From: Polynucleobacter sp.
Lineage (GTDB): Bacteria > Pseudomonadota > Gammaproteobacteria > Burkholderiales > Burkholderiaceae
Direction: 5' to 3'
Length of the DNA stretch: 64,000 nt
Assembly (NCBI GenBank): GCA_016462905.1
Contig: JAEMSI010000005.1
Location: 1-64,000 of the forward strand
This document shows positions 39,568 through 41,480 of the stretch, in pieces. A program made the translations under genes and the position numbers. Numbering within the stretch: the stretch's first letter is position 1; each line of letters starts with the position of its first letter. Under the pieces are notes generated by a model that was not told the DNA's origin, did not search any database, and saw nothing but the letters and a program-made list of their open reading frames with translations.

Positions 39568-40464
39568 ATGTTCGGTTTACGTAAAACCCTTGGGGCATTG
39601 TTTAAATTAAATCAAGTCGACGAAGTTTGGTTTGATGATCTGGAAGAAGCCCTAATTAAAGCGGATGTTGGCGTTAGTACTGCCAGTCAATTAATTCAGG
39701 CGCTAAAAAAATCGGCTAAATCACAATCGATTCAAAATCCAACTGATTTGCATCGTATTTTGGAACAAGAAATTGGCTCCCTTCTGCAAATCATTGAGCC
39801 CGCCCATAATCCATTGGCAGTAAACGCGGTCTCCCCCTCCCCTGAAATTTGGTTAATCGTCGGCGTCAATGGGGCTGGCAAAACAACCAGCATTGGAAAA
39901 CTGTGCCATCTTTTTCAAGAGCAAGGTAAATCCATCTTGCTGGCGGCTGGCGATACCTTTCGAGCTGCCGCTCGAGATCAGTTGAAAGAATGGGGTCTTC
40001 GTAATAAGGTGACTGTACTAAGTCAGGAAGGTGGCGACGCAGCGGCGATTGCGCATGATGCGATTCAGTCCGCTCTTTCTAAAAATATCGATGTCTTACT
40101 GATTGATACGGCTGGTCGTCTCGCTACTCAACAGAATCTAATGGAAGAATTAAAAAAAGTGAAGCGCGTTATTGCTAAGGTGCTGCCCGGGGCGCCTCAT
40201 CAAACAGTTTTGGTCTTAGACGGCAATACTGGTCAAAATGGCATCGCTCAAGTTCAAGCGTTTAAAGAAGCGATTGGCTTAAATGGTCTGATTATTACCA
40301 AGCTGGATGGTACAGCTAAAGGTGGTGTGATTTGCGCACTAGCCAATCTATTTCGATCGCAAAAAGAGCAGGATCGAACCTATGTTTACGCCGTAGGTAA
40401 AGGGGAAAAAATGGGGGATTTAGAGCTATTCAAGGCCAAATCCTATGCCGCTGAACTTTTATAA
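39568..40464 (+). CDS. ftsY: Signal recognition particle receptor FtsY (short N-terminus)
   Basis: [55 protein letters not shown]. Confidence 0.96.
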   Translation: MFGLRKTLGALFKLNQVDEVWFDDLEEALIKADVGVSTASQLIQALKKSAKSQSIQNPTDLHRILEQEIGSLLQIIEPAHNPLAVNAVSPSPEIWLIVGVNGAGKTTSIGKLCHLFQEQGKSILLAAGDTFRAAARDQLKEWGLRNKVTVLSQEGGDAAAIAHDAIQSALSKNIDVLLIDTAGRLATQQNLMEELKKVKRVIAKVLPGAPHQTVLVLDGNTGQNGIAQVQAFKEAIGLNGLIITKLDGTAKGGVICALANLFRSQKEQDRTYVYAVGKGEKMGDLELFKAKSYAAELL

Positions 40465-40501: not shown

Positions 40502-40528
40502 TTAGCACTCGTACCGATAGAGTGCTAA
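40502..40528 (+). promoter_or_regulatory. CIRCE element (putative HrcA operator) upstream of rpoH
   Basis: TTAGCACTC-gtaccgata-GAGTGCTAA: exact match to the consensus inverted repeat with N9 spacer, 34 bp upstream of the rpoH ATG. Confidence 0.93.
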
Positions 40529-40562
40529 AATAGATTCATATTAACTCAGTAGTGAGCTATTC

Positions 40563-41480
40563 ATGAACCTGAAAACTAACTTAAATCCTTCTACAAACAA
40601 GGCTGGCTTAGCAGCCTTGGCTATGCCTTCTTTGCCCGCACTGGGTGTCGGTACGATCGATGCTTATATTTCGCATATCAACCGTTTACCCATGCTTTCT
40701 GCTACCGAAGAATTTCACCTTGCTCAAGAATTTCGTCGCACTGAAAATTTAGATGCTGCCCGTAGGCTCGTTCTATCTCATCTGCGCTTGGTAGCTTCGA
40801 TTTCTCGTCAATATCTTGGCTACGGAATTCCCCATGCCGATCTTATTCAAGAAGGCAATATAGGCTTGATGAAAGCGGTAAAGCGCTATGACCCTGCTCA
40901 GGGAGTGCGTTTAGTTTCTTATGCGATTCATTGGATCAAAGCAGAAATTCACGAATACATTTTAAAAAACTGGCGCCTTGTTAAAGTTGCCACTACGAAA
41001 GCGCAACGTAAATTATTTTTTAATTTACGTAGCAATAAACCCACTCTCAATTCCTTAAGTCCAGGGGAAATAGAATCGCTTGCAAAAGCCTTGGATGTTC
41101 GCGGGGAAGATGTCCGAGAGATGGAAGTGCGCTTAGCGGGAGGCGATGTATCGATCGAAGGGGATGACACGGATGATGATTCTTTTGCCCCGATTCAATG
41201 GTTAGCAGATGAGCGTAGCGAACCCACGGCGGTGATGGCCAACTCAGAACTTCATCAACTGTTCGGCCCCAAATTAGACCAGGCTCTCAATGGTCTGGAT
41301 GAAAGAAGTCGTCATATTGTTCAAGCACGCTGGCTTGATATAGACGCTGACGGTAAGGGCGCCAAAACACTTCATGATTTAGCGGACGAGTACCAAATCT
41401 CTGCTGAACGTGTAAGGCAAATTGAAGTAGCGGCATTTAAAAAAATGCGTCAGACACTACAAGCTGAAACACTAAACTAA
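40563..41480 (+). CDS. rpoH: RNA polymerase sigma-32 factor
   Basis: ATEEFHLAQEFRRTENLDAARRLVLSHLRLVASISRQYLGYGIPHADLIQEGNIGLMKAVKRYDPAQGVRLVSYAIHWIKAEIHEYIL; RpoH box-type region and C-terminal HTH. Confidence 0.96.
   Translation: MNLKTNLNPSTNKAGLAALAMPSLPALGVGTIDAYISHINRLPMLSATEEFHLAQEFRRTENLDAARRLVLSHLRLVASISRQYLGYGIPHADLIQEGNIGLMKAVKRYDPAQGVRLVSYAIHWIKAEIHEYILKNWRLVKVATTKAQRKLFFNLRSNKPTLNSLSPGEIESLAKALDVRGEDVREMEVRLAGGDVSIEGDDTDDDSFAPIQWLADERSEPTAVMANSELHQLFGPKLDQALNGLDERSRHIVQARWLDIDADGKGAKTLHDLADEYQISAERVRQIEVAAFKKMRQTLQAETLN

Follow-up and report, generated by a model that had tools for sequence, protein, structure and literature searches.

An HrcA operator predicted to share its letters with the promoter of rpoH in Polynucleobacter and its relatives

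Introduction

How is rpoH, the gene for the heat shock sigma factor, transcribed in bacteria that also carry the repressor HrcA? Most control of sigma-32 in Escherichia coli is post-transcriptional. A stretch of 64,000 nucleotides from a Polynucleobacter sp. genome (GenBank assembly GCA_016462905.1, contig JAEMSI010000005.1, positions 1 to 64,000), which we call the window, carries an inverted repeat that reads as CIRCE, the HrcA binding site, ahead of rpoH. A preliminary description of this repeat proposed that HrcA represses rpoH, in a cascade from HrcA to RpoH to the chaperones that would stand in for control of the E. coli type, exerted through translation and stability only. Here we examine this proposal in the window, in the whole genome, and among relatives.

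Results

The repeat, TTAGCACTC-GTACCGATA-GAGTGCTAA, occupies positions 40502 to 40528 of the forward strand. It is a perfect 9-9-9 inverted repeat with 0 mismatches to the operator of the HrcA/CIRCE regulon, TTAGCACTC-N9-GAGTGCTAA, and the window holds no other match at up to 3 mismatches (0.01 are expected in shuffled sequence). The ATG of rpoH (40563 to 41480, forward strand) begins 34 bp past the end of the repeat. Its product scores 381.7 bits against the RpoH family TIGR02392, above the curated cut-off of 323.1, and is 77% identical to RpoH of Polynucleobacter sp. UK-Kesae-W10, the best named relative; identity is at a like level in the three genomes of the same genus. The perfect CIRCE that had been described 34 bp upstream of rpoH is thus confirmed by the motif scan and the family match.

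The genome that we scanned (1.84 Mb, 98% complete) carries hrcA, the gene on which the proposal depends (PF01628, 217 bits, E = 1.8 × 10−64). At up to 3 mismatches, a CIRCE scan of the whole genome returned rpoH (0 mismatches), groES (1 mismatch), and a site with 3 mismatches within a coding gene. We set the last aside for its mismatches and its position, as probably a chance match, which leaves two good sites only, rpoH and groES. The same scan found no CIRCE at dnaK, grpE, clpB, or hrcA. The heat shock genes are ordered hrcA-hemH-grpE-dnaK; apart from hrcA and dnaK, they were named from inspection of their protein sequences. dnaK is preceded by a perfect sigma-32 promoter (CTTGAAA-N13-CCCCAT; 13/13); grpE (12/13), groES (11/13), and clpB (10/13) have weaker ones, which are only suggestive when taken alone because scores of at least 11 arise 24 times in 128 kb by the same method. 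The ferrochelatase gene lies within this heat shock cluster, and the sigma-32 promoter of grpE overlaps its end.

Across 300 Burkholderiales genomes, CIRCE (up to 2 mismatches) was found in 264, and hrcA also in 264. The two agree in 288 genomes (258 with both, 30 with neither), and the discordant ones, 6 in each direction, are mostly incomplete assemblies. Fisher's test for this co-occurrence gives p of about 2 × 10−29, which is no formal probability, since the genomes are related. We read the region upstream of rpoH in 90 Burkholderiales genomes, 85 with hrcA and 5 without. The operator (up to 3 mismatches) is kept in 82 of the former and in 1 of the latter, an 84% complete assembly, and is absent from the other 4; the repeat is therefore conserved among relatives, as would be expected if it served HrcA. 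The remaining 3 hrcA-positive genomes, all of one genus, have a degenerate operator with 4 to 5 mismatches, so HrcA wiring of rpoH is dispensable in that genus. With hrcA kept, the rpoH CIRCE decayed, and RpoE also absent, these three genomes offer a natural experiment on what drives rpoH once CIRCE decays.

CIRCE also stands at rpoH in named loci from Trinickia, Pandoraea, Rugamonas, Variovorax, Nitrosomonas, and Uliginosibacterium and, among the gamma-proteobacteria, from Alcanivorax, Dyella, Methylocaldum, Pseudoalteromonas, and Thiodiazotropha. It was not found at the sampled Vibrio, Pseudomonas, and Haemophilus loci. E. coli differs from the Polynucleobacter genome in being without hrcA in the control genomes searched, and the sampled enterobacterial rpoH loci are without CIRCE. 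The presence of CIRCE at rpoH is ancient and common, across beta-proteobacteria and many gamma-proteobacteria, and is no peculiarity of this genome.

The operator coincides with a predicted promoter. A -35-like hexamer, TTAGCA, lies in the left arm of CIRCE (40502 to 40507, forward strand), and after a spacer of 18 bp the right arm, extended by AAT, gives an extended -10, TGC-TAAAAT (40523 to 40531, forward strand). The right arm plus three bases thus reads TGCTAANAT, and the -10 itself is made of the last three right-arm letters and AAT. This TTAGCA-18-TAAAAT element, with TG preceding the -10, is the sole sigma-70-like promoter of the rpoH upstream region, and it spans the operator. Taken singly, its score of 9/12 hardly exceeds chance (0.7 expected); support for the putative promoter comes from conservation, not from its score. 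Among 157 distinct rpoH operators, which are phylogenetically non-independent, 133 are followed by NAT, completing TGCTAANAT, against 0 of 35 groES operators, a smaller control set taken entirely from Burkholderiales (p = 7 × 10−23). After removal of sequences at least 70% identical, the count at rpoH is 126 of 148. The two arms also differ in how they change. An A-to-G change at position 3 (TTAGCA to TTGGCA) occurs in the left arm of 35 rpoH operators and its mirror image in the right arm of 2 (p = 1 × 10−8 for the asymmetry; 5 and 2 at groES), as expected if the right arm doubles as a -10. We conclude that the rpoH operator probably shares letters with its promoter, which is the new detail here. 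If true, this sharing would explain why the operator at rpoH hardly drifts.

Many relatives have, in addition, a sigma-E-type promoter upstream of rpoH, GGAACTT-N15-17-TC... In the commonest layout its -10 consists of the TC of the CIRCE left arm and the first loop bases, with GGAACTT at -16 or -17. In Variovorax, Diaphorobacter, and loci like them, the motif is shifted by four bases (to -12), and in Burkholderia-like genomes it lies entirely upstream of CIRCE, at about -28 to -33. Scores of at least 7/9 were obtained at 89 of the 157 rpoH sites (1.35 in shuffles) and of at least 8/9 at 57 (0.1 in shuffles). Where the sigma-E -35 sits at -16 or -17, loop position 3 is A in 43 of 51 sites, against 12 of 60 sites without it. 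In 106 genomes, a motif scoring at least 6 accompanies RpoE in 70 of 94, against 2 of 12 genomes without RpoE (p = 2 × 10−4, from few lineages). A sigma-E input at rpoH is familiar from E. coli, whose rpoH P3 is a sigma-E promoter.

In the genus of the window, RpoE is absent from all four genomes searched, and rpoH of three sister genomes has no sigma-E motif. The window itself contains a single match, located at -50 relative to the operator and reading into the ftsY stop region; with RpoE absent and the match missing in the sister genomes, we judge it to be chance or a relic. The pairing of a GGAACTT-N16-TC.AA motif with an rpoE gene, which would mark a sigma-E-dependent rpoH promoter, was accordingly not found for the window. 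Because it is without RpoE, the genus would be left with the sigma-70 rpoH promoter alone, under HrcA. We lean toward a general picture in which rpoH of beta- and many gamma-proteobacteria has overlapping sigma-E and extended -10 sigma-70 promoters made of CIRCE letters; an HrcA dimer would gate both cytoplasmic and envelope stress inputs, and lineages that lose RpoE would keep the HrcA-gated sigma-70 half. If this is true, the shared letters would make it possible to predict in which relatives rpoH is coupled to envelope stress.

At groESL, the classical place of CIRCE, operator and repressor are the same as at rpoH, but the setting differs. Besides having no NAT that would complete a -10, the groES operators are preceded by a sigma-32 promoter: 33 of the 35 have one scoring at least 10/13 (14% in shuffled sequence), mostly at -28 to -30, and CIRCE sits just downstream of it. 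At rpoH, sigma-32 matches of at least 10/13 occur at 16 of 157 sites (8% in shuffles) and of at least 11 at 2 of 157. No CTTGAAA-N11-16-CCCCAT promoter scoring at least 9/13 was found upstream of rpoH in the window. With matches near chance at the 157 sites and none in the window, we rejected sigma-32 autoregulation of rpoH. In three loci, CIRCE lies 24 to 29 bp before a groES-like gene, where 55 to 133 bp is usual; two of them are without a good sigma-32 promoter, and these are perhaps extra groES copies under other control.

These sites bear on the proposed cascade. Its first step, HrcA acting on rpoH, has good support from the sequence: the genome carries hrcA, the only recognizable promoter is overlapped by the operator, and operator and hrcA are kept or lost together across the order. 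A simple cascade is an incomplete description, since groES also carries an HrcA operator just after its sigma-32 promoter. The circuit would most likely be a coherent feed-forward loop: HrcA would keep both rpoH and groESL off, and sigma-32 would turn on groESL and dnaK.

Discussion

The sites, the overlap of operator and promoter, and their conservation are direct observations. We think it likely that they reflect a sigma-70 promoter of rpoH repressed by HrcA, within a feed-forward loop with negative feedback. At normal temperature, free GroEL would keep HrcA active, and an HrcA dimer would bind CIRCE at rpoH and cover the -35 and the extended -10, excluding RNA polymerase. Heat or misfolded protein would occupy GroEL, HrcA would dissociate, and rpoH and groESL would be freed together. 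Fresh sigma-32 would drive groESL, grpE, dnaK, and probably clpB from their sigma-32 promoters, and rising GroEL would restore HrcA, closing the loop by negative feedback. In relatives with RpoE, envelope stress would also feed rpoH through sigma-E, fully only when HrcA is off. We infer HrcA binding, occlusion of polymerase, and derepression by heat at rpoH from the arrangement of these letters. Control of HrcA activity by GroEL is established in other bacteria, and by analogy it would close the circuit here.

Could HrcA bind at rpoH and yet matter little? The gene ftsY (39568 to 40464, forward strand; TIGR00064, 305 bits) lies upstream on the same strand, and a search for terminator-like sites found none between it and rpoH. 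Because ftsY reads toward rpoH without a terminator, transcription of rpoH by readthrough, independent of HrcA, is possible. rpoH might then be transcribed mainly from ftsY or from another promoter, with CIRCE trimming the level of mRNA and with heat control exerted at translation and protein stability. The precedent of E. coli favors such a reading, as does the capacity of the rpoH leader and early coding region to fold; the predicted segment from 40538 to 40780 folds slightly better than shuffled sequences (z = -1.67), a value that speaks neither for nor against a translational thermosensor. Nevertheless, the fusion of promoter and operator is strongly constrained across the order, whereas the spacing between operator and start codon differs greatly among relatives, and we regard this reading as rather improbable. 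The folding result, together with the lack of an Rfam family match at the rpoH leader, also leaves unsupported the part of the proposal in which HrcA replaces E. coli-type control of translation and stability; these layers could coexist with HrcA.

The RNA copy of a perfect inverted repeat can fold, and at other genes CIRCE can be part of the transcript, which would allow the repeat to be mainly a terminator-like element or a hairpin of the rpoH leader. At rpoH, the best promoter would begin transcription downstream of CIRCE. Its -10 places the start point near 40538 and predicts a short leader (40532 to 40562, forward strand), and CIRCE would therefore fall outside the rpoH mRNA. The hairpin reading also finds no support in the terminator and Rfam searches, and the exact match to the letters of CIRCE, beyond mere pairing, and the tracking of the presence and absence of hrcA make it very improbable. 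A chance palindrome can be dismissed as negligible: loose matches can arise, as the 3-mismatch site found within another gene of the genome illustrates, but the expected number in the window is far below one, and the repeat is kept at orthologous rpoH genes in the order and beyond.

An earlier comparative survey by Permina and Gelfand reportedly treats these two regulons in the same taxonomic groups, and probably lists rpoH in beta-proteobacteria. The analysis of Geobacter sulfurreducens in PMC545781 (2004), which according to its available text builds on that survey (Permina and Gelfand 2003; beta-, gamma-, and epsilon-proteobacteria), predicts in Table 8 a perfect CIRCE upstream of rpoH at position -51. 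Because it is listed there, HrcA-rpoH wiring is an already known kind, and the caution in the preliminary description that it may not be novel was justified. As far as the accessible portion of PMC545781 goes, G. sulfurreducens resembles our case in having both rpoH and groESL under CIRCE. It differs in that its hrcA-grpE-dnaK-dnaJ operon also has CIRCE, while here hrcA has none and dnaK and grpE have sigma-32 promoters only. That portion contains no description of a promoter overlapping the rpoH CIRCE. In the parts of the literature that our search covered, PMC545781 alone described rpoH with CIRCE or HrcA; the fused promoter-operator and the sigma-E overlap had no description there, which is weak evidence given its open-access scope.

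For Burkholderia pseudomallei, the available part of PMC5552950, citing Vanaporn et al. 2008, describes a heat-inducible rpoH promoter as being under RpoE control. This fits the sigma-E motif just upstream of CIRCE in Burkholderia-like genomes and differs from the genus of the window, which is without RpoE; the same part of PMC5552950 makes no mention of CIRCE at B. pseudomallei rpoH.

If the HrcA-gated promoter operates as we propose, the heat shock master switch of a very large group of bacteria would be tied transcriptionally to the load on the chaperonin. Such control of rpoH transcription would depart from the E. coli textbook picture, and the exact bases on which it depends can be tested.

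Two loci from the wider set deserve mention in their own right. One contig bearing the title Verrucomicrobia encodes an RpoH of proteobacterial type behind a sigma-E/CIRCE promoter; the assembly is probably mislabeled or contaminated. The rpoH operator of Luteimonas reads TTAGCAGTC-N9-CACTGCTAA, with a mirrored change in both arms, at positions 7 and 21, that may reflect a shifted specificity of HrcA.
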